From IMG/VR virus record IMGVR_UViG_3300009149_000154, positions 1 through 33,013 of that record: a DNA stretch of 33,013 nt; one strand, written 5' to 3'. This document shows, one piece after another, positions 2,999 through 31,087 of this stretch (position 1 is the stretch's first letter; the number at the start of each line of letters is the position of its first letter). Under the pieces are notes generated by a model. The model was not told where the DNA came from. It saw nothing but the letters and a program-made list of their open reading frames with translations, and searched no databases. The position numbers were made by a program, and so were the translations under genes. This DNA is from a virus.

Positions 2999-3136
2999 CT
3001 AAAAACTCTCTAGGATCAACAGAGAGATGTTCTCTCTATTATGAAGGGAAACTAAACAACTACCTACTAGAGGATTGAAACTTGTCCATAAGATATCAGG
3101 AGAAAAGGTCATTAGAGCATTAGGCTTAGCTATCAT
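2999..3136 (-). CDS. Small ORF containing repeat element copy 1 (45 aa, uncertain gene)
   Basis: The frame starts at ATG 3136, directly after the TAA of the LysM-type gene, with a strong GGAGGGGAG Shine-Dalgarno upstream. It ends three bases before the hub start. An internal ATG lies at 3112. Most of the peptide comes from the repeat element, including FNPLVGSCLVSLHNREN. Context (ribosome site, tight spacing) favours translation, perhaps only to couple hub expression. Against a protein function, eight of the ten base differences between copies 1 and 2 change an amino acid. The product is not recognised. Confidence 0.4.
   Translation of the reverse strand: MIAKPNALMTFSPDILWTSFNPLVGSCLVSLHNRENISLLILESF
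3002..3113 (-). repeat. Repeat element copy 1 (112 bp)
   Basis: It matches copy 2 (20864-20975) without gaps over 112 bp, with 10 mismatches by hand count. Its part 3011-3080 aligns without gaps to copy 3 (29771-29840). The 35-bp core 3046-3080 is identical to copy 3. On the minus strand, 3021-3037 forms a perfect 7-bp hairpin, AGAGAGA-ACA-TCTCTCT. The element lies in the leader of the hub gene. Confidence 0.9.
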
Positions 3137-8872: not shown

Positions 8873-9574
8873 TTAGAAGCTTACACCACCACTAATACCA
8901 CCACTAATACCACCACTAATACCACCTCCGATGTTGAAGCTGAACCCAGATCCACCCATTGTGAAGTACTGATAGGCCAAAGTCATCTTGTGAATGATAT
9001 TGGCACCTCCTTCACCACTAAGGTCGCCAAGAGCAGCACTCCGGATGAAACAACCGCACAAAGTGTACACCCTAACTGGATTCATATGGTTACCCAGAAC
9101 CATAATGTCAACATCTCGGAGGACAAAAGGAACTCTTCCTTGATAACCCCCTCCACCACCACCACCAAGCCCTGCTCCTGCACTGAAACCTGCTCCAGCA
9201 CTGAAGCTTGCTCCTGCACTAAATCCTCCTGCACTGAAGCTTGCTCCTGCACTAAAGCCTGCTCCAGCACTAAAGCCTGCTCCAGCACTAAACCCAGACC
9301 CAGACCCAATTTGGTGTATCTCGCTCAGCCACTGTTCAACTGGCTGCTCTGATCCATCTCCTAAGACTCCCTTCTCCAACTCAACATCTCTGAATCTGAT
9401 TCGGCCAGGAGCCTTTTGTGGACACAATGACCCAGCTGGGTTGAAAGTAACAACTTGGACCTCAAATTCAGGCAACGTGGCCTTTTGAAAGAGGGCTGCC
9501 TCAAATCCTTGAATTCTGACCAAGAATCTGTGAGTCTGCGCCAAATACTCCGGCTCAGTTCGCACAAGAGCCAA
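8873..9574 (-). CDS. Tail tube protein paralogue 2 with Gly/Ala/Ser/Phe repeat insertion
   Basis: This 233-aa protein is a close paralogue of the 156-aa tube protein just upstream. They share TEPEYLAQTHRF, GFEAALFQ, LPEFEVQ, QKAPGRI, GDGSEQPVE and LSGEGG-ANII. It differs by an insertion at residues about 90-144 built of FSAGAG, FSAGAS and FSAGG units ending in a run of glycines, placed in a surface loop between QWLSEIHQ and QGRVP. It also has a C-terminal GGISGGISGGISGG tail. The start is TTG 9574, chosen because AAGGAG lies six bases upstream and the next residues align with the paralogue. It may form a minority ring, the tube end or a decorated part of the tube. A terminator follows the gene. 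Confidence 0.85.
   Translation of the reverse strand: MALVRTEPEYLAQTHRFLVRIQGFEAALFQKATLPEFEVQVVTFNPAGSLCPQKAPGRIRFRDVELEKGVLGDGSEQPVEQWLSEIHQIGSGSGFSAGAGFSAGAGFSAGASFSAGGFSAGASFSAGAGFSAGAGLGGGGGGGYQGRVPFVLRDVDIMVLGNHMNPVRVYTLCGCFIRSAALGDLSGEGGANIIHKMTLAYQYFTMGGSGFSFNIGGGISGGISGGISGGVSF
8880..8927 (-). repeat. 12-bp tandem repeat encoding GGIS units
   Basis: The plus-strand unit ACCACCACTAAT occurs three times in perfect tandem, with a degenerate fourth copy. It encodes the Gly-Gly-Ile-Ser tail of the second tube protein. The length is a multiple of three, so copy-number change would keep the frame. Confidence 0.85.
9170..9292 (-). repeat. 18-bp-based tandem repeat encoding FSAGAG units
   Basis: Units of about 18 bp (plus strand GCTCCTGCACTGAAACCT and variants) repeat about seven times, with one 15-bp unit near 9222-9236. 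They encode the FSAGAG/FSAGAS insertion of the second tube protein. All units keep the frame, so slippage would only change loop length. Confidence 0.85.
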
Positions 9575-9589
9575 ATCTATCTCCTTCTG

Positions 9590-10060
9590 TTACTCTACCG
9601 AAAAGTACTGGTAAGCCAGTGTTACGCTGTTGATGATGTTCTCTCCTCCCTCACCACTCAATGCCCCAAGGGTCGCACTCTTCACAAAGCACCCATGCAG
9701 AGTGTAAGTCTTGACAACACCCATCAAATTGTTCAAGACCATGACATTGATGTCTTTCAAAACATCAGGTACTTTCCCTTGTGTCCCATTTGCTGCCTGA
9801 ATGATCTTCTCCAGCCAATCCTCAACTGGCTGCTCTGATCCATCACCCATAATGCCCTTCTCCAGCACAACATCACTATATGTGATTCGGCCAGGAGCCT
9901 TCTGAGCAAAGACCGATCCTCCTGGATTGAAGTTGACCTCTTGGACCTCAAATTCAGGCAAATTAGCTGTCTGGAAGAGAGCGGCCTCGAATCCATCAAC
10001 CTCTACACGAAATCGATGAGTCTGTGCCAAATACTCAGGCTCTGTTCGTGTATACGCCAT
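9590..10060 (-). CDS. Major tail tube protein
   Basis: This 156-aa protein follows the sheath gene and has the compact size of phage T4 gp19-like tube proteins (PF06841 type). It opens TEPEYLAQTHRFRVEVDGFEAAL in part, then LPEFEVQEVNFNPGG, a GRITYSDVVLEKGI strand pair and KTYTLHGCFVKSA, and ends TLAYQYFSVE. This resembles the family pattern in which an early x-F-x-V-x-IDG strand is followed by a x-V-T-L-K-RG strand. GGAGGAG lies seven bases before ATG 10060. It is probably the main subunit, since the neighbouring copy carries insertions. Confidence 0.88.
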   Translation of the reverse strand: MAYTRTEPEYLAQTHRFRVEVDGFEAALFQTANLPEFEVQEVNFNPGGSVFAQKAPGRITYSDVVLEKGIMGDGSEQPVEDWLEKIIQAANGTQGKVPDVLKDINVMVLNNLMGVVKTYTLHGCFVKSATLGALSGEGGENIINSVTLAYQYFSVE

Positions 10061-11623: not shown

Positions 11624-12076
11624 CTATACCACCTCCTCTGTTATTCGTATCTTGTTTTGTTTTGACAACCTAGTCATCTCTTGAGAGAGCTGGCTAGGTG
11701 GTATTCTTACTGAGTCCCTTCCATATAGATGGAGAGTCCCACCACCATTTTTGTGCAAAACCCAAGGTTGATTACACAAATTTCGGATAACTATGACCTT
11801 CTTAACCAATTTGGCTGCAGGGAGCCGAGTGGGTTTTGATGGAATAATTACCGCTTTTGGCGGAAGGGGTTTTACCACTTCTTTCTTTGGTGGAATAATC
11901 ACCACTTCCTTTGGAGATAGTTTTTCCTCATCCTTCTTTATCAGTGGAATCTCCATCTTCTTTGGAGAGAATACTTCCACATTCTTTGAGGAAGTGTCCT
12001 TGAGCTCTGGGGACTTAGGCAGAGGCTCCAACTGTTTCTTCCGCCTTACTACCAATGTTTCTTCCTCCCATACCAT
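11624..12076 (-). CDS. Pro/Lys-rich protein of unknown function, next to sheath
   Basis: This 150-aa protein has a low-complexity N-terminal half full of PPK, PKK and KEVV units, so it is probably extended and basic. The C-terminal 60 residues look folded: KKVIVIRNLCNQPWVLH, NGGGTLHLYGRDSVRIPPSQL and KIRITEE. It starts at ATG 12076 with GAGG eight bases upstream and overlaps the end of the glycosyltransferase gene by 62 bases in another frame. It ends just before the sheath start. The folded part resembles small beta-sandwich phage proteins, but I do not recognise the family. A role in neck or sheath assembly, or as a glycosyltransferase partner, is only a guess from position. Confidence 0.7.
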   Translation of the reverse strand: MVWEEETLVVRRKKQLEPLPKSPELKDTSSKNVEVFSPKKMEIPLIKKDEEKLSPKEVVIIPPKKEVVKPLPPKAVIIPSKPTRLPAAKLVKKVIVIRNLCNQPWVLHKNGGGTLHLYGRDSVRIPPSQLSQEMTRLSKQNKIRITEEVV

Positions 12077-13256
12077 AAGACTTAACCTCTTTGAACCAAT
12101 GTTCTTTTACATCGTCAGAAGACGCATCTATACCCAACATTGCAACTGCATGAGCAAACACTGCTGCCGGTTTGATCTCTGACAAGCAGGGAGTAGCTCT
12201 TAGAGGCAACTGATTCTTGATGGCAAGTTCTTTGGCTTTCCGACAAGGATCATGTCCATGTTGGAAACAAGGCATATAAGGACAAAAATCCCTATTTGGC
12301 TCCATAGCCATACATTTGGGATACGACCTTACTCTGGCCATTGCAGGGAATGGACCATAGAATGCCAACGATGGAATACCTAATGCAGCCGCAAAGTGAA
12401 CAAATGCTGAATCTGGACAGATCAACAAATCACTACGTTGGATCAATGCTATTGTAGTCTTTATATCAATTAACCCACAGAGATTGTGGATTTTCCTAAA
12501 ATGTTTCATATCAATGGAACAATCTCCCTGTTTACCCACCAACAAGACCCTAACATTTGGGAAAGCAGAGAGGCTGACAGCCACATTCAAAGTGTAATCC
12601 AGAGGATATGTTCTCACAAGACTAGATGCTCTAACCTGAATTACTATTGTCTGGACTCCATTTATCTCCATCCGATCTTTCCTGGCCAAGTGCTGGATAA
12701 CCCGGCAAGCCTTCTTGTTATTGTCTTCAGATACCTTGTACATAGGAATCATTTCGGATTCTTCCAGAGGCACTCCAGACAGTTCCGCAAATACCTCTAT
12801 ACCAGTCTTCTCTGGGTCTTGAGACCTCTCGATTGTTCCCTCAAAATGGAGATGAAAATCATGTTCATCTAACTCATCCTCAGACAATGGAACATGATAT
12901 ATCTTGTCTATGTATCCTTGTTGCTTAAATGCTAGACCAAAAAATGGGGAACAAGCCAAGTCTATTTTAGCAGTTGGATATATCCTCTTGATTTTATCCA
13001 TGATAGGAGACAACATCAAGATGTCCCCAAACCCCCCAGTTCGCATAAACAAAAGGCTCTTATCAGAGAGGTCTGTTCCAATTCCAGGGTATTGCCGGTA
13101 GGAATCCCATTTTTTCACCTCAAATTGGAACCCTGGATTCCTTGCCTTTGCCCGCATGCAATCTATGTCTATAGAGTCACTAAAGAGGTAGAAAATGTCC
13201 GGTCTAAGCTTGCTACCCTTGCGGGGATCACTGTCTGGGAACCGTGCTAATTTCAT
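12015..13256 (-). CDS. Glycosyltransferase family 9 (heptosyltransferase-like)
   Basis: This 413-aa protein has the two-Rossmann GT-B layout of the ADP-heptose:LPS heptosyltransferase family. Residues 74-100 hold GGFGDILMLSPIMDKIKRIY, equal to the GDxxxxxPxxxxLKxxxP motif of WaaC/WaaF. Residues about 259-302 hold the donor-site signature LIQRSDLLICPDSAFVHFAA followed by ALGIPSLAFYGPF, matching the family's ADLxIxxDSGPxHLAAALGxPxxALFGP. A Cys/His-rich stretch follows (DFCPYMPCFQHGHDPC). The start at 13256 has GGAG seven bases upstream. It sits between connector and sheath genes, unusual for an LPS-type enzyme. With the heptose kinase gene at 22483-23547 it suggests sugar transfer to a virion protein, to DNA or to host LPS. 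The acceptor cannot be read from sequence. Confidence 0.85.
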   Translation of the reverse strand: MKLARFPDSDPRKGSKLRPDIFYLFSDSIDIDCMRAKARNPGFQFEVKKWDSYRQYPGIGTDLSDKSLLFMRTGGFGDILMLSPIMDKIKRIYPTAKIDLACSPFFGLAFKQQGYIDKIYHVPLSEDELDEHDFHLHFEGTIERSQDPEKTGIEVFAELSGVPLEESEMIPMYKVSEDNNKKACRVIQHLARKDRMEINGVQTIVIQVRASSLVRTYPLDYTLNVAVSLSAFPNVRVLLVGKQGDCSIDMKHFRKIHNLCGLIDIKTTIALIQRSDLLICPDSAFVHFAAALGIPSLAFYGPFPAMARVRSYPKCMAMEPNRDFCPYMPCFQHGHDPCRKAKELAIKNQLPLRATPCLSEIKPAAVFAHAVAMLGIDASSDDVKEHWFKEVKSYGMGGRNIGSKAEETVGASA

Positions 13257-20854: not shown

Positions 20855-20974
20855 CTATCTTCTAAAACTCTCTAGGATCAACGGAGAGGAGTTTTCTCTA
20901 TTATGGAGGGAAACTAAACAACTACCAAATAGAGAATTGAAACTCCTCCATAAGATATCAGGAGAAAAGGTCAT
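20855..20974 (-). CDS. Small ORF containing repeat element copy 2 (39 aa, uncertain gene)
   Basis: ATG 20974 lies one base after the portal stop, and the last portal codons AGG AGG form its ribosome site. It ends 14 bases before the Mu F-like gene. The peptide, including FNSLFGSCLVSLHNREN, is wholly made by the repeat element. Translation is plausible from context. The excess of amino-acid-changing differences from copy 1 (8 of 10) argues against a conserved protein function. Confidence 0.4.
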   Translation of the reverse strand: MTFSPDILWRSFNSLFGSCLVSLHNRENSSPLILESFRR

Positions 20975-20975
20975 T
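20864..20975 (-). repeat. Repeat element copy 2 (112 bp)
   Basis: It matches copy 1 (3002-3113) over 112 bp with 10 mismatches and no gaps. The invariant 19-mer GGGAAACTAAACAACTACC (plus strand) is shared by all three copies. The perfect hairpin of copy 1 is weaker here. It lies in the leader of the Mu F-like gene. Confidence 0.9.
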
Positions 20976-22496
20976 CTACCTCCTATTCTCCTCCATCTCG
21001 TCAAAGATCACCCGATCTCTCAATACTACAACACCTTGGAGCAAGGCGTCCATTATGCTTTCTCTCGATTTTCCCACATTGAAAACTTTTGGAAAGCTTT
21101 CAATAGTCTCCTCAGTAGAAATTCCATAGTAGTATTTTCTGGCCTCTTCGACAGACATAATCCCGGAAGCAACAACTACAGACGCGGCCTGACTTTTGAG
21201 TTGTTCTATCTGAGCTAGGGTCTTTTCGTCTTCATGGCTGCCAGGTATGAGTTCAAGATAATAAGTTGTAAAGCCCATTGCCTCAAAAAGTGGTTCCAAG
21301 GCTGTTATAAACATGCGTTGAAGGGGCCTTATTGTCTTCAAATTGAAATTAAGGCTCTGCTGTTGACTATTGGCCTTGATCGCCTGCTCCCATATTCCTG
21401 CCTCAGAAGGGGGAACTCTCATAACAGCACAAGTCTCTTCTCGTGTCTGCTTGCGATAGAGAATAAATGACCCTTCTTTCATCTCTACAGCAACTGGCTC
21501 AAAATGAGCCTCCATATCCCCTGGCAAAGGAAGGATCAGTGTCCTGTGAGCCTGTCCTTGAAGTTTCTCTTCAAAGAACTTACGTATAATCTTCTTAACT
21601 TCCTCTGTAACCTTACCACCAGATATTGTCACAATATACTGAGGAACAGCATTGTTCTCAAAGAATTGAAGGTTGAACTTGGCTGCTGCAAAGTCTCCCA
21701 TCATCGAATACCAAGCAGAAAGGATTGGAGGTATACCATAGAAATCATCAAGAGGTGAATAAGCCTTGAAATGAATCAAAGAACTCACAAAGTCATCCCC
21801 AGGTTCAGGAGGCTTATTGTAAACAGTTTCCCCTCCAGCATTCACATAGTTTATTGGATAAGGAAATGCCCGAAAATACCTCCTTTTGTTAGAATCCGCA
21901 GAGGATCTCTGAACATACTTCTCTCTCTTCTTCCCTACCCGTATTCTTGGAGAAGGAACATGATATACACCATCATAGCCCTTAGGTGACTCTGTAATCT
22001 CAAGAAAGGCATTCCCTGTCGTCTCAAAGTCCATAAGGGCTTGTTTGAGCTCCGGGATCAGAGGGGTGTTTCCTACCCCTCTGCCAGAGATAAAGTCATC
22101 AAAACGTTTCTTTTCTTTTGGATTTTCAGACATCCCCTCTCGTTTCTTGAGAAGATAGCCCAAATCAAAGGTGTTTGTGACTTTAGCATCTATACAACTT
22201 CTCACCCATGGATTTCTCAGAATAGAAAGAGCTAAGTCTTCCATTGGAAACGGGGGAGTTACAAACTCAGAATAGTCCATAGATGTGAATCCATCTGGCA
22301 AAAGAGCTTTACTCTTGCTCTTCTGCATTTTTGCCCTCTTTTCAAGATCTACTGGGAATGGTCCCGCTCGATCTGGATTATCTTGAACTTCTAAGTCACC
22401 AGACTTCTTAAGATCATCTAAACTCCTCAATCTCCCTGTTTCTGTAAGGAGAAAAGCCTCACTTAGAACAGGAGTATCTTCATTATTTGCCATCAT
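20976..22496 (-). CDS. Portal protein (PBSX/HK97 family)
   Basis: The 506-aa protein is the dodecameric DNA gateway. Typical segments: LALSILRNPWVRSCIDAKV, GNAFLEITESPKGYDGVYHV, SSLIHFKAYSPLDDFYGIPP followed by ILSAWYSMMGDFAAAKFNLQFF, and ENNAVPQYIVTISGGKVTEE, then MRVPPSEAGIWEQ. The order P-S-P-x-R (sugar-like strand), H-F-x-x-x-S-P-x-x-x-x-Y-G-I-P and F-F-x-N-x-A-x-P is characteristic of PBSX-type portals. The gene overlaps the heptose kinase gene by 14 bases; GAGG lies about six bases before ATG 22496, and a second ATG follows at once. It ends in AGGAGG TAG, which also serves as the ribosome site of the next small frame. Confidence 0.93.
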   Translation of the reverse strand: MMANNEDTPVLSEAFLLTETGRLRSLDDLKKSGDLEVQDNPDRAGPFPVDLEKRAKMQKSKSKALLPDGFTSMDYSEFVTPPFPMEDLALSILRNPWVRSCIDAKVTNTFDLGYLLKKREGMSENPKEKKRFDDFISGRGVGNTPLIPELKQALMDFETTGNAFLEITESPKGYDGVYHVPSPRIRVGKKREKYVQRSSADSNKRRYFRAFPYPINYVNAGGETVYNKPPEPGDDFVSSLIHFKAYSPLDDFYGIPPILSAWYSMMGDFAAAKFNLQFFENNAVPQYIVTISGGKVTEEVKKIIRKFFEEKLQGQAHRTLILPLPGDMEAHFEPVAVEMKEGSFILYRKQTREETCAVMRVPPSEAGIWEQAIKANSQQQSLNFNLKTIRPLQRMFITALEPLFEAMGFTTYYLELIPGSHEDEKTLAQIEQLKSQAASVVVASGIMSVEEARKYYYGISTEETIESFPKVFNVGKSRESIMDALLQGVVVLRDRVIFDEMEENRR

Positions 22497-23547
22497 CTTT
22501 GTCCTCTATTGCTATTTCTGACTGCTCGTCTGTTGTATCTGTATGTTCCTCGTCCTGCTCTACATCATCAAACATCTCTTCTTGGATTTCTCTTTGTAAC
22601 ATTTCCATATCTGGGGCACAAGCTCCTACCTTACTTACAACTTGAGATGCTGCCAAATTTGCTATCTTTGCCATCTTCTGGTCAGAATACCCCAAAGCTT
22701 CAGTAATACTTGCTGCTACTATCACAGCATCTCCAGCACCAGTGACATCCCAAACTGGATACCTTGCTTCCACAGGTTCCCAGTAAGATTTGCCTTCTCC
22801 TATAACATAGATACCCTTTTTACCACAAGTAACCAGGATAGTTCCGATCCCCAAATCCTTCCTATATTGGGACAAATGATCAAAGAGGACATTGTCTGAA
22901 GACTCAATGGGATCTATTCCCATCCCCATACAAGCCTCGTAATGATTTGGGGTTAGAAGGTCAACTCCTTGATAGTGTTCATACCACTTGTGCTTAGGAT
23001 CCACGGAGACAATTGTGTCTTGTTCTTTATCCTGAGAAAGAATGCCTTTGATAAGGTCTGGAGAAACCACTCCTTTCCCATAATCTTCAATTATCACAAT
23101 GTCTGGAGACATCTTCATCATAGAAGAGACATAAGCTACCAACCTAGAGGAGAGGTCGGCTCCTATCCAATCGGTTTGTTCCTCATCGATCCGGAGGAGC
23201 TGTCCTCGTTCCACCATAATCCGTGTTTTGACTGTGGTCCACCGTCCTGGAACAAAGAACAAGCCCTGAGTATGAATACCTTGAGCAGACAAGAGATTTT
23301 GGAGTATCCAACCTGCCTTGTCAACTCCTACTATACCAGCAACATGAACATCTGCACCAAAGGCTCTAGCAACAACAGCAACATTAGCTGCTCCTCCTGG
23401 TCTGTAACGAATGCTTTTGGCCTTAAATATGGGGACAGGTGCCTCCTGTGAGAGCCTTGTTGAAATCCCGTCCGAATATCTATCTAACATCACATCTCCA
23501 ACGACCAAGATTTTCAGATTCTTAGCTCTCTCTAAGAAATTCAGCAT
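22483..23547 (-). CDS. hldE-like: PfkB-family kinase, HldE/RfaE kinase-domain-like
   Basis: The 354-aa protein (start ATG 23547, GAGGAG seven bases upstream) matches the kinase domain of HldE, which makes heptose-1,7-bisphosphate from D-glycero-beta-D-manno-heptose-7-phosphate. Evidence: GDVMLDRYSDG (17-27), RLSQEAPVPIF (31-41), YRPGGAANVAVVARAFGADV (48-67), TTVKTRIMVERGQLLRIDEE (104-123), YGKG, DPKHKWYEHYQGVDLLTPNH and the catalytic WDVTGAGD (266-273). The C-terminal nucleotidyltransferase domain of bifunctional HldE is absent; an acidic tail of about 35 residues replaces it. It lies between terminase and portal, an unusual place. Other PfkB sugar substrates remain possible, but the RxSQEAPVP signature favours heptose-7-phosphate. 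Confidence 0.88.
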   Translation of the reverse strand: MLNFLERAKNLKILVVGDVMLDRYSDGISTRLSQEAPVPIFKAKSIRYRPGGAANVAVVARAFGADVHVAGIVGVDKAGWILQNLLSAQGIHTQGLFFVPGRWTTVKTRIMVERGQLLRIDEEQTDWIGADLSSRLVAYVSSMMKMSPDIVIIEDYGKGVVSPDLIKGILSQDKEQDTIVSVDPKHKWYEHYQGVDLLTPNHYEACMGMGIDPIESSDNVLFDHLSQYRKDLGIGTILVTCGKKGIYVIGEGKSYWEPVEARYPVWDVTGAGDAVIVAASITEALGYSDQKMAKIANLAASQVVSKVGACAPDMEMLQREIQEEMFDDVEQDEEHTDTTDEQSEIAIEDKDDGK

Positions 23548-23575
23548 GTCTTGTCTCCTCAATCCTCTTCCACTT

Positions 23576-25270
23576 TCATGTATATGCCTCTTCCATCACA
23601 TTTGACCTGTACCTATCAAAAACGTAGCATGCAAGGGCGGCACCAAAAACTCTGTCATCAAATCCTCCCACACTCGCCATAGGAGTTCCTTGATCATTAT
23701 ACTGAAATATGGTCATCTCGTTTACAAGAGGCCGAGATCGAATAGTAATTGCTTGTTCATCCTCCACAAGTCTCTTTAGAGCAGCTAGGATCAGAGGCCG
23801 CGTCTCTACATTCGTAGGAAGTCCGGGCCGCCTCGTCTTCCTCTTAGTTCTTCGTTCTCTGCTCACATGGAAATAGACATTGGGGTATAAAAGATGATGA
23901 AGCAGATTGTCAATAACCACGTGTCCATGATTGTTACGCTCAGGAACTATTAAGGCATCATTATAGTATTCAGCCGCTATCTTGAGAATCTTGGCATATA
24001 TGTGTGGAGCCAAAAAGCAATGAATCTCCCCAGCCTGAATCCCGGTCGTAGCATCCAGAATAAAAGCTGCTGATGGATGTCCCTCAGACAAACCCTCTGC
24101 AACATCACTCCCAATGATATAATCATGGCCAGGTATGGGCTCCCCATAGATGAGGATCACATTTTCCATACGTCGAATAGGATCACGAGTCTTGGGCAGA
24201 ACCTTGAACTGAACATGACTCAAATCAAAGTATGGCCTACTTGTGGTCAAGAAGCAATCTTTAGGATCTTCTGGATATTCTTGGCAAAAAGCCTCCTCTG
24301 CTGTTGATGCTCTAGCCCCAGACACAACTTCTGAGGATTTCATTGAGGCAATCTTCCATCTCCGCCATGCTATCTGGTCCAAAGACAATTTGTGAACATC
24401 TACAAGAGTCTTCTCATGGGTTGAAAGATTATTCCAAGTAGGGATCATAGAATCTCTCATCCTGATTGTCCCAAGACCAAGATGTCCCCGAGCTTGGGCT
24501 ATATCTATCTTGTAATTGGGATCCATCCACCAAGGATAAAATTGGAGAGAGTAAACTCCTCTGTCCCCTAGACAATCCATACAAAAGTCGTAGAACCAAC
24601 CTGATGCGCCATTAGGTGTTGACTCAATCATGACCCACCCATTCTGGGGAACAGCTTCAATCAGAGCCTTGAACAAATCAGCCTGGTGGGGAATGAATGC
24701 TGCTTCTGTAATGTGAAGATTGTTGATCGTGTAGGATCGGCCCAAAGAACTTGAACCATATCTCTGAGTCCCTATTGCTCTTTGACCTTTTTGACCAGAA
24801 AACACAACATATTTAGAACCAGTATGGGCAAAACGTATCTCATGCCTGTTAGCTATTTCCAGTGGAAGCTTTACCTCTGTGCGTAGATTGTCATAGTATC
24901 TGGATATAATCTCAAAAAAGTTTACAACTGTCCCATCGTCTTGAGCAACAGAAACAGTCGTTACCTCTGAGGCACAATAGGTTCTCAAGAAAGTAGCTGC
25001 CGTAATGATTGTAGAAAAGCCTCCCTGACGATACTTAAGCAGACCGTCCCGACCAGCAAGACTCCTCAGCAATTCCTTCTGGACTTCATAGAGAGTAAGA
25101 GGAACAATCTTAGGGCGTTTATCCCGGATAATCAGATTACTCTCAATAGCCTGAATCAGAAGGTTTGCTCGCTCGGTAGGATTACTTGTCTCAGGATAGA
25201 CAGAGTTGACAAGTTTCTCATACTCATCAACTTTGAATGTTGATTTTACTTTCTTGACTCTGTTCATCAT
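23576..25270 (-). CDS. Terminase large subunit
   Basis: This 564-aa protein is the DNA-packaging motor. It has an ATPase domain with KYRQGGFST (79-87, Walker A of the terminase type), LHITEAAF (185-192, Walker B with catalytic Glu) and the coupling motif IESTPNG (215-221). The RNase H-like nuclease has IIGSDVAEG (D389), VPERNNHG (E444) and GGFDDRVFGAALA (D538/D539), so the three acidic positions are present. The start at 25270 is one of two adjacent ATGs, with an AAGG-like motif upstream. No clear small subunit is visible; the 95-aa gene just upstream is the only candidate by position. It is preceded by the hypermodification cassette. Confidence 0.95.
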   Translation of the reverse strand: MMNRVKKVKSTFKVDEYEKLVNSVYPETSNPTERANLLIQAIESNLIIRDKRPKIVPLTLYEVQKELLRSLAGRDGLLKYRQGGFSTIITAATFLRTYCASEVTTVSVAQDDGTVVNFFEIISRYYDNLRTEVKLPLEIANRHEIRFAHTGSKYVVFSGQKGQRAIGTQRYGSSSLGRSYTINNLHITEAAFIPHQADLFKALIEAVPQNGWVMIESTPNGASGWFYDFCMDCLGDRGVYSLQFYPWWMDPNYKIDIAQARGHLGLGTIRMRDSMIPTWNNLSTHEKTLVDVHKLSLDQIAWRRWKIASMKSSEVVSGARASTAEEAFCQEYPEDPKDCFLTTSRPYFDLSHVQFKVLPKTRDPIRRMENVILIYGEPIPGHDYIIGSDVAEGLSEGHPSAAFILDATTGIQAGEIHCFLAPHIYAKILKIAAEYYNDALIVPERNNHGHVVIDNLLHHLLYPNVYFHVSRERRTKRKTRRPGLPTNVETRPLILAALKRLVEDEQAITIRSRPLVNEMTIFQYNDQGTPMASVGGFDDRVFGAALACYVFDRYRSNVMEEAYT

Positions 25271-25294: not shown

Positions 25295-25582
25295 TCAATG
25301 CACCAATTCTGGAAGAAGGACATCTTCTTCAGACAACATCTTTTCTATATCTTCTGTTCTAACTGCCATACAACCCCCACTAGTGACTATTGCTGCTCCT
25401 GGTCCTGCCGTCAAAAGGTATTGCCACAGATGCCTTCGTCGATCCTCTGTCCAACTTGCTAGCTGTACAGGAACGAGACCAAAATCCTCCCACATACTTG
25501 CCAGATTACAACCTCCCTGGTTTATAACAGCATTCATCATGTCAGTATACCTTTCTTGGGCTGTAGAATTGATAGTCTTCAT
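25295..25582 (-). CDS. Small protein upstream of terminase, unknown function
   Basis: The 95-aa protein is acidic at its end and has a helical pattern (TAQERYTDMMNAVINQGG, RRRHLWQYLLTAGPG). It ends 24 bases before the terminase start and begins 16 bases after the zinc-ribbon gene. By position it could be the terminase small subunit, but it is short and shows no evident helix-turn-helix, so I leave the function open. Confidence 0.65.
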   Translation of the reverse strand: MKTINSTAQERYTDMMNAVINQGGCNLASMWEDFGLVPVQLASWTEDRRRHLWQYLLTAGPGAAIVTSGGCMAVRTEDIEKMLSEEDVLLPELVH

Positions 25583-25598
25583 CTATTCTAGTCCTATC

Positions 25599-25778
25599 TT
25601 AAGAATGTCCCAACTCTGAAACCTGTTCCTCCAACTTTGAGATTATATCATCTCTGGTTGCCACTTGTGCCTCAAGCTCAGCTATCTGATCTTGAAGAGT
25701 CTCTTCACAAGCTCCACAACAGATCTTCTCTCCGTCTCCTATTGGGTTATGGCAACTATCACATACAATCTTGATCAT
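25599..25778 (-). CDS. Small zinc-ribbon/coiled-coil protein (59 aa)
   Basis: The start codon overlaps the stop of the upstream gene (ATGA), implying coupled translation. Four cysteine-type ligands open the protein: C6-x2-C9 and C20/C21-x-C24, giving a CDSC...CCGAC zinc ribbon. A heptad-like coiled coil follows (LQDQIAELEAQVATRDDI and ISKLEEQVSEL). It is probably an oligomeric metal-binding adaptor. The partner is unknown; its tight linkage to the 220-aa gene suggests that they act together. Confidence 0.75.
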   Translation of the reverse strand: MIKIVCDSCHNPIGDGEKICCGACEETLQDQIAELEAQVATRDDIISKLEEQVSELGHS

Positions 25779-26437
25779 CTTTCATTCTCCTTTTCTTGTT
25801 GCATTTTTATCAAAACACTCTGCTGATAATGTTCTTTGGAAATAACTCCTGCAAGGAACAGCCTACCATCTTGAACCAATGGATCTAAGAGCTTAGAAAC
25901 CCAATCCACAGGGTCAAGGCCCATCGGAACAGATGAATCTACTAAAAGAAGGGAATTTGGAACCTTCCTCAGCAGTCGGCTCATAAATCTCTCCCAAGAA
26001 ATACTACTTGAGAAAACAGTCTGAACATTAATCTTAGCCAATTCATCTTCATACAATTTAAGCCGTTGTGGAGCATCTATAAGACGTTCTTTCAAGAAGC
26101 CCATATTGGGAACTGTACGTAGAGGATTCTGAGACCCATCATAGATGTCATCTATCAGAGATTGGAGCATTGCTTTTCTCTCATTGGCTTCCAACCAAGA
26201 TTTTTCATATTTCATCCCGGCTGAAATACTCCGTCCCATTGCTATCTTCACCATCAATTTCCACTTCCAATCCTTCTTCTGATTTCCCTCCTTCTCAGAC
26301 CGGACACTAATACCCACACTGAGTTGGTCAGTATAAGAAGGCACCTGATCAATGAACACACAGGCAAAGGGTCGATGTCCTCCACCCTTGATCCCAGTAA
26401 GAATATCATGAACCTTAGGATATGAATTAGTTGGCAT
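25775..26437 (-). CDS. Unknown 220-aa protein in putative DNA-modification cassette
   Basis: It overlaps the P-loop kinase gene by 11 bases and has GGAGGACAGG before ATG 26437. The N-terminal part is beta-rich (RPFACVFIDQVPSYTDQLSV, then GISVRSEKEG), the middle is a long basic helix (KKDWKWKLMVKIAMGR, EKSWLEANERKAML), and the C-terminal half has a Rossmann-like strand-turn SLLLVDSSVPMGLDP and GRLFLAGVISKEHYQ. I recognise no family or catalytic motif. Operon position suggests that it works with the kinase and TS-like protein, perhaps as a subunit or carrier step. Confidence 0.7.
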   Translation of the reverse strand: MPTNSYPKVHDILTGIKGGGHRPFACVFIDQVPSYTDQLSVGISVRSEKEGNQKKDWKWKLMVKIAMGRSISAGMKYEKSWLEANERKAMLQSLIDDIYDGSQNPLRTVPNMGFLKERLIDAPQRLKLYEDELAKINVQTVFSSSISWERFMSRLLRKVPNSLLLVDSSVPMGLDPVDWVSKLLDPLVQDGRLFLAGVISKEHYQQSVLIKMQQEKENER

Positions 26438-27155
26438 ATACCTGTCCTCCTCTTAAATCATGTGTTCCAAACTGGCCCTCGAACCAGTCTGCTACATCTT
26501 CCACACTCAAACGAGTAGTGTCCAATTCCAGCACTCTAATTCCTCTCTTCACAGATTTGTGGGCATTCACTTCAGCTGCATGCCTCTTGTTCTCCATGTT
26601 TCCTACAACAATTGGGGTAGTTGGCCTACCTGTTCTATTATGAATACGCTCCAAACAGACCTTTGGGCTAGCATAGAGATGAACTACAGTAACTTCCCTC
26701 TCAAGGCCTGAAAACACCTTAGACCTAACATCAATCCAATCCAAATGCCCCAGTAAACACCCTCCCATTAGAGCACCTTCCACAATCAAAGGTAATGGAA
26801 ATGGCCATAATATGTGAAGAACATATCTCACATCTTCCGTTGTAGCTAAAGTGTCTGCTCCTCCACAAACTCTGACATACTTTCCTACAATTGTAAATCT
26901 GTCTGGAACTACCAAGCCTAAAAGCCTTCTATGATCTCTCACATAGCAGATTGGCAAAGAGGTTTTGGCCTGTTCTGCTCTGTGTATCAATTCATACATT
27001 GCTGCTGTTTTACCTGATCCACTGGTTCCAATAACTATGATCAGAGGCAAAGGTTCTAAAGGGGGAGGAGTCTGCCTTTTGACAAATGCCAAAATCTTCT
27101 CCACATACCCCAAAGGTCTATCTATGTCCTTCAATCCCTTGATTGTGTTAGCCAT
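26427..27155 (-). CDS. P-loop kinase, 5-hydroxymethyl-dU DNA kinase-like
   Basis: The 242-aa protein has a Walker A motif GTSGSGKT (43-50), GKYVRVCGGADT (91-102), PLIVEGALMGG (122-132, a Walker B/lid region) and LYASPKVCLERIHNRTGRP, a nucleotide-kinase lid with Arg. The GKYxxxCGGxDT motif is the one I associate with the P-loop kinases that phosphorylate 5-hydroxymethyluracil in phage DNA before hypermodification, as in SPO1/M6-type systems. This link rests on my memory of the motif, not on a search. It lies downstream of the TS-like gene and overlaps the next gene, making an operon. An alternative is a generic nucleotide kinase of unknown substrate. Confidence 0.72.
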   Translation of the reverse strand: MANTIKGLKDIDRPLGYVEKILAFVKRQTPPPLEPLPLIIVIGTSGSGKTAAMYELIHRAEQAKTSLPICYVRDHRRLLGLVVPDRFTIVGKYVRVCGGADTLATTEDVRYVLHILWPFPLPLIVEGALMGGCLLGHLDWIDVRSKVFSGLEREVTVVHLYASPKVCLERIHNRTGRPTTPIVVGNMENKRHAAEVNAHKSVKRGIRVLELDTTRLSVEDVADWFEGQFGTHDLRGGQVYAN

Positions 27156-27168
27156 TGTTTATGCTTTC

Positions 27169-28482
27169 CTACTCCTTTGAAAACTCACTCATGGTTAAGA
27201 CCTCTGGACGAATAGGTATCAATTTCAGTGCCCCTGGCTTGTCCTTTACCCTCTTCAGATAGGCTACCAGAACTAAGTCCCTTACCTCTTGAGGCAACAC
27301 CTCGAGGACCTCGGCTGCCTCTTTGGGCCTATTGGTTCTCAAAAACCAATTCAATAAGAACCCTGCTGCTTGAGGCTGAAAGTATCCCACAATATCTCTC
27401 AGGGCCTTCAAATGAGGCTCAGATTTTTTACCCAGGTAGGCTCTAGATGTTTTTAGATTGGGATTGGAATACTCCTTTTCAGACTCCAGAATCTTCTCTG
27501 CATAGCACAACTCTGCAATCTTCATCACATTCACCCAATCAGCAAAATACTGGGTTTGAAGTTGACCTATCTTCTCATCTGCTTCTTCAAAAGCAGCCAA
27601 ACGGAGGTCTTGCTCAATACGTTCCTTGAGATCCCACTCTTCTCTAAAATCAAACAATTTCAAGGTCTTGGTATCTGGCTTCACAGAAGGGTATAGATCA
27701 GTTATGGGAGAATGTTCCTTCCAAAATTTGTAACGTGCCTCCCATTGAGCACGATCATGCCTGTAGAATATCTGGCGCAAAATGATAAAATAATACTCAG
27801 CCTTGCCTACCTGCTTCTTGAGATGGCCACCTAGCCAAGAACCCAACTCACAAGGCCGAAACATGTCTGTAATCCAATGTTGGTAGAACACATTGTGCCG
27901 CCAAAATGTCCGCACCTTGCCCAAACGACTTCCAAAGTTGTAATTCCAAACAAGGCCACAGGTAACTCTCTGGTGCTCTCTGTCAGAATAGGTTCCCATG
28001 TGCCAACGCCGCTTAGTATACTCCACCAAATCCTTCTTCCAGCGAAAGAGCATAATGCTAGCTTTGTCGGAACCAGGATCATGCTGAAGAAGATTGAGGA
28101 CATGGTGAAGTTGGCCCTCAGCATCTACTGCCCCAGTAATCTGAGGTTCTACAATTCCACTATCAAATACTTCCATTGGGTGGGGCTTGCCTGTGCAATC
28201 TTTGAATGCCCAGTCAATTACTCCACTTGCCTTGAAGTATCTAGCCCGTCTACTGTCATACCTCAAGTGTAGGCCACCAGGAGCAAGAGAACCTTCAACC
28301 AAATCACTTGTCTCTCTTAATATCCAAGCAAGATCATCAGATAAGTGTGGAAGGGGAACAACATAATTCTGGTGAGCATCTTTGATTGTTACAGCCACAT
28401 CTTCTCTGGAGCCATTTTCTAACAGTAGTCCCAAGAGTTGGACATAGGCGTCAAAGCCATTATCTGCTTCTAGGTGGATCAT
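27169..28482 (-). CDS. Thymidylate-synthase-like protein with long C-terminal extension
   Basis: The N-terminal 230 residues show the TS/dUMP- or dCMP-hydroxymethylase pattern, strongly diverged. L-N-LLQHDPGSDKASIM-x-FRWKKDL (129-152) equals the TS segment LKNDPDSRRxxxxxWNxxDL. VTCGLVWNYNF (173-183) offers C175 as the nucleophile. TFWRHNVFYQHW (192-203) fits the Q-R-S-x-D phosphate-binding segment, and CELGSWLGGHL the following helix. Typical TS proteins are near 264-316 aa; this one has 437 aa. Its last 200 residues are helical and charged, with TPR-like hairpins (KRIEQDLRLAAFEEADEKIG region). It may make 5-hydroxymethyl-dUMP or act on DNA bases directly. It starts at ATG 28482 with GGAGGAGAG upstream. 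Confidence 0.6.
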   Translation of the reverse strand: MIHLEADNGFDAYVQLLGLLLENGSREDVAVTIKDAHQNYVVPLPHLSDDLAWILRETSDLVEGSLAPGGLHLRYDSRRARYFKASGVIDWAFKDCTGKPHPMEVFDSGIVEPQITGAVDAEGQLHHVLNLLQHDPGSDKASIMLFRWKKDLVEYTKRRWHMGTYSDREHQRVTCGLVWNYNFGSRLGKVRTFWRHNVFYQHWITDMFRPCELGSWLGGHLKKQVGKAEYYFIILRQIFYRHDRAQWEARYKFWKEHSPITDLYPSVKPDTKTLKLFDFREEWDLKERIEQDLRLAAFEEADEKIGQLQTQYFADWVNVMKIAELCYAEKILESEKEYSNPNLKTSRAYLGKKSEPHLKALRDIVGYFQPQAAGFLLNWFLRTNRPKEAAEVLEVLPQEVRDLVLVAYLKRVKDKPGALKLIPIRPEVLTMSEFSKE

Positions 28483-28489
28483 TTGGTTT

Positions 28490-29740
28490 CTACTCTCCTC
28501 CTACATTCAAATGCAATTTCCTAATGTCTGGATACCTTAGTGCCTTGGCCTCCAACAGAGTATCATTGTGACAAGCTTGGGTGCCTTTTTCTTTACAATA
28601 CAAACAAGCTCCATAGCAACCTGGGAAAGGTTTGAAAGTATCCTCCAAATTCTCCCTGTAAAATACTGGGATAGCTCTTCCGTGGCACTGGTCTGCTGTA
28701 GTGTACTCAGGAAGCATACTATTTCCAGCTTTGCAAGGACCCTGAGTTGTATATTCATAGCATAGAGACATTGTGATCCCAAGATCTTTGGTTAGCCCCA
28801 TCATTCTATCAAAGAATTTCCTCCTAATTGCCTCTGATACAGTAAGAACCCCTCCAATTCTCTGAGTATACACCCTCTTGAACAGATCCACTCTTTCTTT
28901 TGGAAATCTCTTCCCCAATTTCTCTATAAACCATTTAGCATTGTCAGCAGTCAAACTCTCACAGAACTTGAAGATGATGTGCTGTAAACCTCTCTTAGAA
29001 GCATCTATAGCTACCTGAGCTACTTCATCCCAATTACTTATTCCAGGTATAATGGGATTACACTGGATAGATGTGTATACTCCCATCTTGCTAAGTGTGT
29101 GTATCTCCCTCATTAGGTCTTTATAGGAAGCCCCTCTGGGACACATAATTCTTATATCCTTTGGATCAGAGGTATTGATGGAAAATTGGGCATAACTGTA
29201 CTTATTGTGAGTCAATATAGACTTTGCCCAATCTGGCATTATCTGCCTTGTACAAAAGAGAATGGGCAACTCCACCTTGTCAAATACTTTTGCCAATCTC
29301 TCTGTTACATGGTATGTGGGTTCAAGTGCATGAAATGGTTCTGTGAAGGAAGAGATATATGCTGGAAAGGCCACATGCAATTTAGACAGCATTTTTTCAA
29401 CCTTCTCAGGGTAGGCTGGGTCAACAGTTGGAAGCCCTGTCCTCCTGTAACCTCTTGTTCCCCACTGAACATAACAAAATACACAATTGCCAGGACAAAA
29501 TCCTCCGTAAGGCTTAGTCAGCAAATGCTCTGTGTAACACGGTCTTGGTCTTTTGTTGGGAGAACTCTCATGTTTGCTTTTATACCATCCTTGAAGCACT
29601 GCTCCTTGATCTAACACTAAGTGAGGGAAAGGATCAAGAGTTACTGTGAATGCTTTGTCTTTGCCTCCTCTCAACATAGACAAGTTCCTAATCTCTGTTC
29701 TAGCCTGTGGGACACCTATTTTTGGCATTGTCTCTTTCAT
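28490..29740 (-). CDS. Radical SAM enzyme, spore-photoproduct-lyase-like (COG1533 type)
   Basis: The start is set at ATG 29740, with AGGAGG eleven bases upstream, giving 416 aa; the frame continues in-phase to 29869 through the repeat element. The [4Fe-4S] motif is GFCPGNCVFCYVQWG (C82-x3-C86-x2-C89), close to SplB-type enzymes. Then follow SSFTEPFHALEPTY, FCTRQIMPDW, FSINTSDPKDIRIMCPRGAS, and SIQCNPIIPG strands of the partial TIM barrel. A second Cys group near 374-393 (CYGACLYCKEKGTQAC) could bind an auxiliary cluster. It heads the putative hypermodification cassette, ahead of the TS-like and kinase genes. Repair of thymine lesions is the other possibility. Confidence 0.85.
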   Translation of the reverse strand: MKETMPKIGVPQARTEIRNLSMLRGGKDKAFTVTLDPFPHLVLDQGAVLQGWYKSKHESSPNKRPRPCYTEHLLTKPYGGFCPGNCVFCYVQWGTRGYRRTGLPTVDPAYPEKVEKMLSKLHVAFPAYISSFTEPFHALEPTYHVTERLAKVFDKVELPILFCTRQIMPDWAKSILTHNKYSYAQFSINTSDPKDIRIMCPRGASYKDLMREIHTLSKMGVYTSIQCNPIIPGISNWDEVAQVAIDASKRGLQHIIFKFCESLTADNAKWFIEKLGKRFPKERVDLFKRVYTQRIGGVLTVSEAIRRKFFDRMMGLTKDLGITMSLCYEYTTQGPCKAGNSMLPEYTTADQCHGRAIPVFYRENLEDTFKPFPGCYGACLYCKEKGTQACHNDTLLEAKALRYPDIRKLHLNVGGE

Positions 29741-29770
29741 ACTGTTGTCTGCCTCCTGTCTAATACTATA

Positions 29771-29840
29771 TAGGATCAACGAGGTCATGTTTTCTCTATC
29801 TCTTTGGGAAACTAAACAACTACCTACTAGAGGATTGAAA
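29771..29840 (-). repeat. Repeat element copy 3 (70 bp, partial)
   Basis: It aligns without gaps to 3011-3080. The 35-bp part 29806-29840 is identical to copy 1; the left flank is about two-thirds identical. The core supplies the last codons and stop of the 78-aa gene. On the minus strand, the same frame as in copies 1 and 2 is open and joins the radical SAM frame. Confidence 0.88.
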
Positions 29841-30056
29841 TCTAACAGGCCGTATTCCCAGAAAATCATCTACTCGTTTATCATCCATACGCTGAAGAAT
29901 CTGAGGTGTAAGACGAGCATCCATTTCTCGCATAACCCTACGAATAAGTGTATCTCCCTTCTTGGTTGACTTACTATGATCGACTAAATCCAAATGCTGA
30001 CCACACAACGTTCGAATTTCCTCGTCTGATAATCGTCCCATTGTTCCTACTGCCAT
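29820..30056 (-). CDS. Small helical protein, unknown function; C-terminus inside repeat element
   Basis: The 78-aa protein (MAVGTMGRLSDEEIRTL start) uses ATG 30056 with AGGAGG eight bases upstream. It is mainly helical and charged (LIRRVMREMDARLTPQILQR). The last seven residues, RFQSSSR-like, and the stop codon are encoded by the 35-bp repeat core, so the element seems to have replaced the natural end of the gene. No family recognised. Confidence 0.62.
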   Translation of the reverse strand: MAVGTMGRLSDEEIRTLCGQHLDLVDHSKSTKKGDTLIRRVMREMDARLTPQILQRMDDKRVDDFLGIRPVRFQSSSR

Positions 30057-30446: not shown

Positions 30447-31066
30447 TCATTCCTCCAGTCTTTTCTTGCCAATCTCACAACAGGATATAGAATTGTCTGT
30501 TCCAAGCCACTTCTTGTCTAATTCCTTTGCAGCTACTGCTGTAGTCCAACTCCCCATAAATGGATCAAGAATCATATTAGCTTTTGGAAAGAACTTCAAG
30601 AGTTCTACATACAATTTTACTGGATTCTCATTGATATGTTGCTTATTCCTCACTGGAACACATCCAATACAATTCCTGTAAATACGTCCTGGTCCCCAAA
30701 TCTTTTCTTTTGGGTCTCTGATAAATAAGAATATTGGTTCATACCTAAAGGCTGTCATTCCACACTTCTTGTCCCAAATCAATACAGTCCTTGGATTAAA
30801 ACGTTGGCAAATCTCAACAAGCCTCTGGGAGGAATTGAACATCAACATCCTGGGAGATACATTCATGGATGCACTTATGAAATCTTCCAACCATTCGTAG
30901 TAAGGCCACGGAACTTCTTTGTCTTGATAAGGAGGAGAAGTTAGTATCAGGTCAACAACTCCTCAGGAATCTCTGCCATGAAATCTATTGCATCTCCATG
31001 AACCACTTGGCAGGTTGCATCAAGATAGGAATTCAAGTCCTGCAGTTCAATTATTTTACTGGTCAT
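30447..31066 (-). pseudogene. DNA methyltransferase (N4/N6 type) interrupted by frameshift
   Basis: Reading starts at ATG 31066 (GGAAGG upstream) with MTSKIIELQDLNSYLDATCQ, continues to VVHGDAIDFMAEIPEE, then stops at TGA 30949-30947. The rest is in the -1 frame: VDLILTSPPYQDKEVPWPYY (catalytic TSPPY motif), FLFIRDPKE, then ILDPFMGSWTTAVAAKEL (SAM-binding motif). Motif order TSPPY before DPFxG is that of beta-group N6-adenine or N4-cytosine enzymes (PF01555). Normal enzymes have DPFMGSGTT; here a Trp replaces the second glycine. There is no slippery heptamer at the break (30947-30965), so the gene may be inactive, or the sequence may contain an error. Confidence 0.75.
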
Positions 31067-31087
31067 GGTTGCCTTCCACCTTCTGAA

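Follow-up and report, generated by a model that had tools for sequence, protein, structure and literature searches.

The question raised by this locus is which protein would attach an amino acid to thymine in a phage cassette that the initial annotation had taken for a thymine hypermodification system with no recognisable amino acid:DNA transferase. The window, that is the whole stretch of DNA analysed, is an IMG/VR virus record of 33,013 bases, a fragment of the genome of a contractile-tailed phage in which genes for the sheath, tube, tape measure, baseplate hub, portal, protease and terminase are recognised; a second copy of the virus is present in contig L007 (99.99% identity across 13.4 kb). 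From the families of the encoded enzymes, we read the cassette as a known kind of system with a variant core, in which a thymidylate-synthase-like protein (TSl) would substitute for the amino acid:DNA transferase (ADDT, PF18724).

The cassette and its radical SAM and kinase genes

Five complete open reading frames run in one direction on the minus strand, from 29740 to 25599. They encode a radical SAM enzyme (28490-29740), TSl (437 aa, 27169-28482), a P-loop kinase (242 aa, 26427-27155), an orphan protein of 220 aa (25775-26437), whose gene begins before that of the kinase has ended, and a small zinc ribbon (59 aa, 25599-25778), whose gene likewise begins within the end of the preceding one and whose translation displays the motif CDSC...CCGAC and a coiled-coil-like tail. 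Because the genes either overlap (kinase/220-aa, 220-aa/zinc ribbon) or are separated by only 7-13 nt, we consider the five of them to form one operon. The five-gene arrangement described initially is real, as the reading frames are complete and co-directional and the matches of the radical SAM enzyme, the kinase and TSl are beyond chance. A small gene (25295-25582) lies between the zinc ribbon and the terminase large subunit (23576-25270, phrog_2). No relatives of the 220-aa protein were found in phages, Pfam, PHROGs or 44 neighbour families; its AlphaFold model has a pLDDT of 40.

The radical SAM enzyme, already recognised by its CxxxCxxC motif, carries this motif as CPGNCVFC (C125, C129 and C132, numbered from the start codon at 29869). 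It matches phrog_9252 (4.9e-90) and a profile of 43 relatives from which the window was excluded (1.9e-135), and shares 38% identity with a Pseudomonas phage M6 protein, gp53, annotated as 'DNA repair photolyase'. The further cysteines of the family (C111, C370, C395, C418, C422, C425, C433) are all in place, at positions conserved in 97-100% of the 43 relatives, and four of these seven are clustered near the C terminus; in total ten family cysteines are kept. The enzyme is a long-branched yet clear member of the M6 gp53 family, an assignment that we regard as firm at the level of sequence. This membership had been missed in the initial annotation, and it makes the chemistry of the cassette less open than was suggested there. 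We take the radical SAM enzyme of the M6 pathway to shift glycine on thymine from a nitrogen to a carbon linkage; the enzyme of the window is predicted to be an N-to-C amino-acid isomerase acting on modified thymine.

The kinase has a Walker A motif (GTSGSGKT) and GKYVRVCGGADT, and it keeps the glycines and the lysine of the P-loop together with the G-x-Y...G-G-x-D signature (G91, Y93, G99, D101) and the conserved residues E126, G127 and R174. Its placement in the family of hydroxymethyl-dU DNA kinases is upheld by a profile made from 45 related kinases with the window left out (1.8e-27), PF18748 itself giving no match up to an E of 1. Comparison with the kinase domain of Bacillus phage Goe26, which does match PF18748, gives 5e-11, and Goe26 and LysYB1 have the nearest related kinases, in a tree grouping without strong support (84/58). 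We assign the protein firmly, as far as sequence can predict, to the 5-hmdU DNA kinase family as a divergent member.

The DNA of phage M6 contains 5-(2-aminoethyl)-dU, and the M6 5-hmdU kinase has been described as acting on DNA (PMC6449724). The M6 neighbourhood has the order ADDT, PLP enzyme, radical SAM enzyme, kinase (PF18748), HMUDK_hel (PF18723) and thymidylate synthase (TS). With this 5-NedU cassette (gp51-gp58) the window shares the radical SAM and kinase families and the clustering of the genes; it differs in having TSl instead of ADDT (gp51) and in the absence of a PLP enzyme, HMUDK_hel and TS from the fragment, while the orphan 220-aa protein and the zinc ribbon are features of the window. 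Searches of the 33-kb record recovered no PLP enzyme and no other TS gene, nor HMUDK_hel, the helical partner of the kinase, which is also absent from records L011, L012, L013 and L045, every one of them a fragment. As the window is a fragment too, the rest of the genome may encode any of ADDT, a PLP enzyme and TS. Because of the families to which the radical SAM enzyme and the kinase belong, we identify the cassette as a predicted 5-hmdU-derived thymine hypermodification system of the M6 kind, in agreement with the general proposal made for it initially. The listing of SPO1 among the phages with hypermodified thymine, which accompanied that proposal, was wrong: SPO1 DNA carries plain hydroxymethyluracil.

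Resemblance of TSl to thymidylate synthase and its distribution relative to ADDT

Searches with TSl against Pfam, PHROG, NCBIfam and PDB sequences returned no match of note, and neither the thymidylate synthase model PF00303 nor the corresponding NCBIfam model matched it. When compared with a profile of phage TSs, TSl gives a score of 37.1 in a collinear alignment that runs from residue 1 to about residue 201 (profile column 218), against values of at most 26.1 for 200 column shuffles and 19.6 for the reversed alignment. When 44 natural gene families of these loci are ranked, TS comes first after TSl itself (37.2), with ADDT second (27.7) and all the others at 19.4 or lower. Two observations speak against the match: an unrelated radical SAM profile scored 30.6 against TS in one comparison, though 22.3 in another, and the resemblance is modest, with an hhalign probability of 37-50% for an alignment that amounts to two effective sequences. 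The protein had been called TS-like initially, and the shuffles and the family ranking agree with that description at the level of profiles alone; we consider a relationship to TS probable on these comparisons. The AlphaFold model, derived from the same two sequences, has a pLDDT of 37.

The nucleophile C175 and R195 of TSl align to columns that are 100% conserved in TS, and both are invariant between the two lineages of TSl at 35% identity; W53, D60, G87, Q124, L132 and D151, at columns invariant or nearly invariant in TS, are kept as well. As to the differences, TSl scores below all family cut-offs, the arginine pair of the phosphate clamp (R130/R131) is replaced by D139/K140, the tyrosine of the GxYG motif of TS is replaced by T97, and the C-terminal half is unlike that of TSs and pyrimidine hydroxymethylases. 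At the position of the base-reading Asn of TS (N177-equivalent), TSl has D206, as located by the spacing R+11 found also in the TS of Goe26. An aspartate at this position is typical of cytosine-specific relatives of TS, and D206 may be a lead on the substrate, a uracil-type substrate not being an easy fit. We also considered whether the C-terminal half of TSl might be a shrunken ADDT, with the motif W-V-x-x-x-K-x-A to be compared with W-I-x-x-K-x-A-D of ADDT. ADDT is the second-best family, as stated above, but with broader ADDT profiles the score does not rise above shuffles; the proposal is unproven, and TSl has no significant sequence or profile similarity to PF18724.

A search of viral contigs, genome contigs and plasmids recovered relatives of TSl in a group of Bacillus phages (vB_BsuM-Goe26, SBSphiC and kin, and IMG/VR 2595698964) and in the second copy of the window virus only. 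Over 99% of its length TSl is 35% identical to residues 1-455 of Goe26_01440 (1e-72). In Goe26 and SBSphiC, as in the window, the TSl domain adjoins the kinase; it is there fused to a radical-SAM-like domain without the cluster cysteines, and the next gene (Goe26_01450) fuses the kinase to HMUDK_hel. Both genes are annotated as hypothetical proteins only, and no radical SAM enzyme of the M6 type, with its cluster cysteines, was found beside them. Since the Goe26 partner of TSl has no Fe-S cysteines, radical chemistry does not appear to be a constant companion of TSl. The Lysinibacillus phages LysYB1 and LysYB2 (M3_0048 to M3_0051) have the module layout of Goe26 and a related kinase, with an ADDT-like domain where TSl stands: in LysYB1, M3_0048 carries this domain (8.8e-5, short of the Pfam cut-off; 9.8e-7 when the whole record was searched) fused to the Cys-less radical-SAM-like domain, which shares 44% identity with its Goe26 counterpart.

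Across 43 IMG/VR loci, the usual neighbours of the radical SAM gene are kinase, ADDT, PLP, hel and TS genes; ADDT is present in M6 and in all 11 of the M6-type IMG/VR records longer than 50 kb that were searched, and TSl in none of the 15 M6-type records searched, nor in LysYB1. Conversely, PF18724 is absent from all three records with TSl, namely Goe26, whose genome is complete (129,523 bases, circular), IMG/VR 2595698964 and the window, a fragment; this bears out the initial remark that no recognisable amino acid:DNA transferase is present here. These counts are not independent, and the exclusion amounts to two independent cases, since TSl is known from two lineages. In Goe26, TSl has the genomic position and the fusion partner that ADDT has in LysYB1, and within these records the two are mutually exclusive; the membership of the kinase and radical SAM families, the swap of TSl for ADDT and their complementary distribution are observed features of these loci. 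Goe26 also carries a separate PF00303 protein, so that TSl would not be needed there as a nucleotide-level synthase.

Candidate pathway and competing readings of TSl

We give an even chance to the reading that the cassette hypermodifies thymine in the DNA of the phage itself after replication, with TSl acting in the stead of ADDT. 5-Hydroxymethyl-dU would enter the DNA through genes outside the fragment, and the kinase would phosphorylate its hydroxymethyl group in the DNA. Thymidylate synthase works by attack of its cysteine on C6 of the base, with formation of an exocyclic methylene at C5, and phosphorylated hydroxymethyl-dU in DNA would offer the leaving group for an intermediate of this kind: Cys175 of TSl would attack C6, the phosphate would leave, and an amino acid (glycine, if M6 is a guide) would add to the exocyclic methylene through its amino group, the step for which ADDT is otherwise used. 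In a last step the radical SAM enzyme would turn this N-linkage into a C-linkage, the reaction attributed to its M6 relative. The products of the last two genes of the operon, the 220-aa protein and the zinc ribbon, may be accessory, perhaps in place of the missing helical partner of the kinase. No PLP enzyme is encoded on the fragment, and the C-linked amino acid may therefore be the end product, unless the PLP gene lies elsewhere. The modified base would probably protect the phage from host nucleases.

TS and the pyrimidine hydroxymethylases are known to act on free mononucleotides. A protein such as TSl, in which the Cys and the Arg are kept and the mononucleotide clamp is lost, would fit an enzyme that acts on a base within DNA, and we hold a non-orthologous, TS-like amino acid:DNA transferase to be the likeliest reading of TSl, at about even odds. 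What TSl catalyses, which amino acid it uses and which base results are inferred from this comparison; with ADDT (PDB 8z2m, a glycinyltransferase, and 25qc) TSl would have in common the predicted step and the position in the cassette. If this is true, TSl is a relative of TS whose active site has been turned into a tool for decorating DNA, and amino-acylated thymine can be reached by two unrelated routes. We put at slightly less than an even bet that phages invented the attachment of amino acids to thymine twice, once with the helical ADDT and once with the TS-like TSl by way of an exocyclic methylene in DNA; TSl might then use some other nucleophile and yield an undescribed base. Goe26_01440 is a named, uncharacterised gene of a cultured Bacillus subtilis phage, and the idea is therefore directly testable.

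The initial annotation had TSl making or altering hydroxymethyl-dU. In its more explicit form the first of these readings makes TSl a nucleotide-level hydroxymethylase, producing 5-hydroxymethyl-dUMP or its cytosine counterpart, with an ordinary ADDT outside the fragment, and it accommodates the TS-like profile match, the aspartate at the N177 position and a window that has no other TS gene. It fits poorly with Goe26, where TSl coexists with the PF00303 protein, where the complete genome has no ADDT at all, and where the fusion partner of TSl is the domain joined to ADDT in LysYB1; the arginine pair that would bind the nucleotide phosphate is moreover D139/K140 in TSl. With a separate TS-family gene in Goe26, the place of the transferase occupied and the phosphate clamp lost, we regard this function as less likely than was first thought, and in its explicit form as quite unlikely.

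Two further readings were considered. TSl might be an extra sculpting enzyme that works after a normal transfer, the real transferase being either unrecognised, the 220-aa protein for instance, or off the fragment. The presence of an orphan protein in the same operon and the incompleteness of the record speak for such an arrangement, which we nevertheless hold unlikely, as Goe26 has nothing corresponding to the 220-aa protein, and the complete genome of that phage retains TSl, kinase and hel with no ADDT. Alternatively, TSl might be a non-catalytic protein derived from thymidylate synthase, with a DNA-binding or scaffold role; several TS-invariant residues are indeed changed, and the fusion partner in Goe26 has lost its own catalytic cysteines. 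The invariance of Cys175 and Arg195 across two lineages at 35% identity speaks against a loss of catalysis, and we regard this role as distinctly improbable.

Leader repeat and other features of the record

The cassette is preceded by the third copy of a 112-nt element (29762-29873, minus strand), which lies ahead of the radical SAM gene. The element occurs three times in the window (3002-3113, 20864-20975 and 29762-29873), the latter two being 91% and 66% identical to the first, and each copy is placed 7-24 nt upstream of a minus-strand gene start; the other two stand just upstream of genes of the structural module that start at 2995 and 20840. It is probably a shared leader or promoter, and the copy at 29762-29873 probably marks for the cassette where transcription or translation starts. 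The first start codon of the radical SAM reading frame is at 29869, and the start at 29740 gives a protein of 416 aa. We prefer the latter because it is preceded by a strong Shine-Dalgarno sequence (AGGAGG) and has the leader repeat upstream; this is also the start implied initially, and it agrees with the position of the repeat. On the plus strand the element contains ACTAAACAACTACC..TAGAG.ATTGAAA, which to us recalls some CRISPR repeats; a CRISPR-like reading is unconfirmed, as no Rfam family matched.

Some observations concern neighbouring genes and related loci. A second, distantly related radical SAM gene is found in three of the records (L011 6041-7282, L012 5371-6762, L013 8298-9662), near cassettes that have no HMUDK_hel and very divergent kinases, a further variant of the cassette. 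A DNA methyltransferase gene (30447-31067) encodes 147 aa in the window and 206 aa in L007 owing to a 1-nt difference, which is either a true frameshift or an assembly error. Between the terminase and portal genes there is a pfkB-type kinase (22483-23562), whose best NCBIfam match is heptose-7-phosphate kinase (rfaE domain I, 8.6e-80, below the cut-off), and the structural module includes a heptosyltransferase-like glycosyltransferase (12015-13256; PF01075, 7.8e-13); these two genes hint at sugar transfer by the phage. Within a tail-tube-like gene of 233 aa there are repeats in steps of 15-18 nt (9138-9311), and a 188-nt duplication (9326-9513 and 9812-9999) is common to this gene and its neighbour. 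The end of the contig (32891-33013) consists of a 17-bp tandem repeat, TGCGTGTCCTTTATGAG, at which the contig probably stopped.
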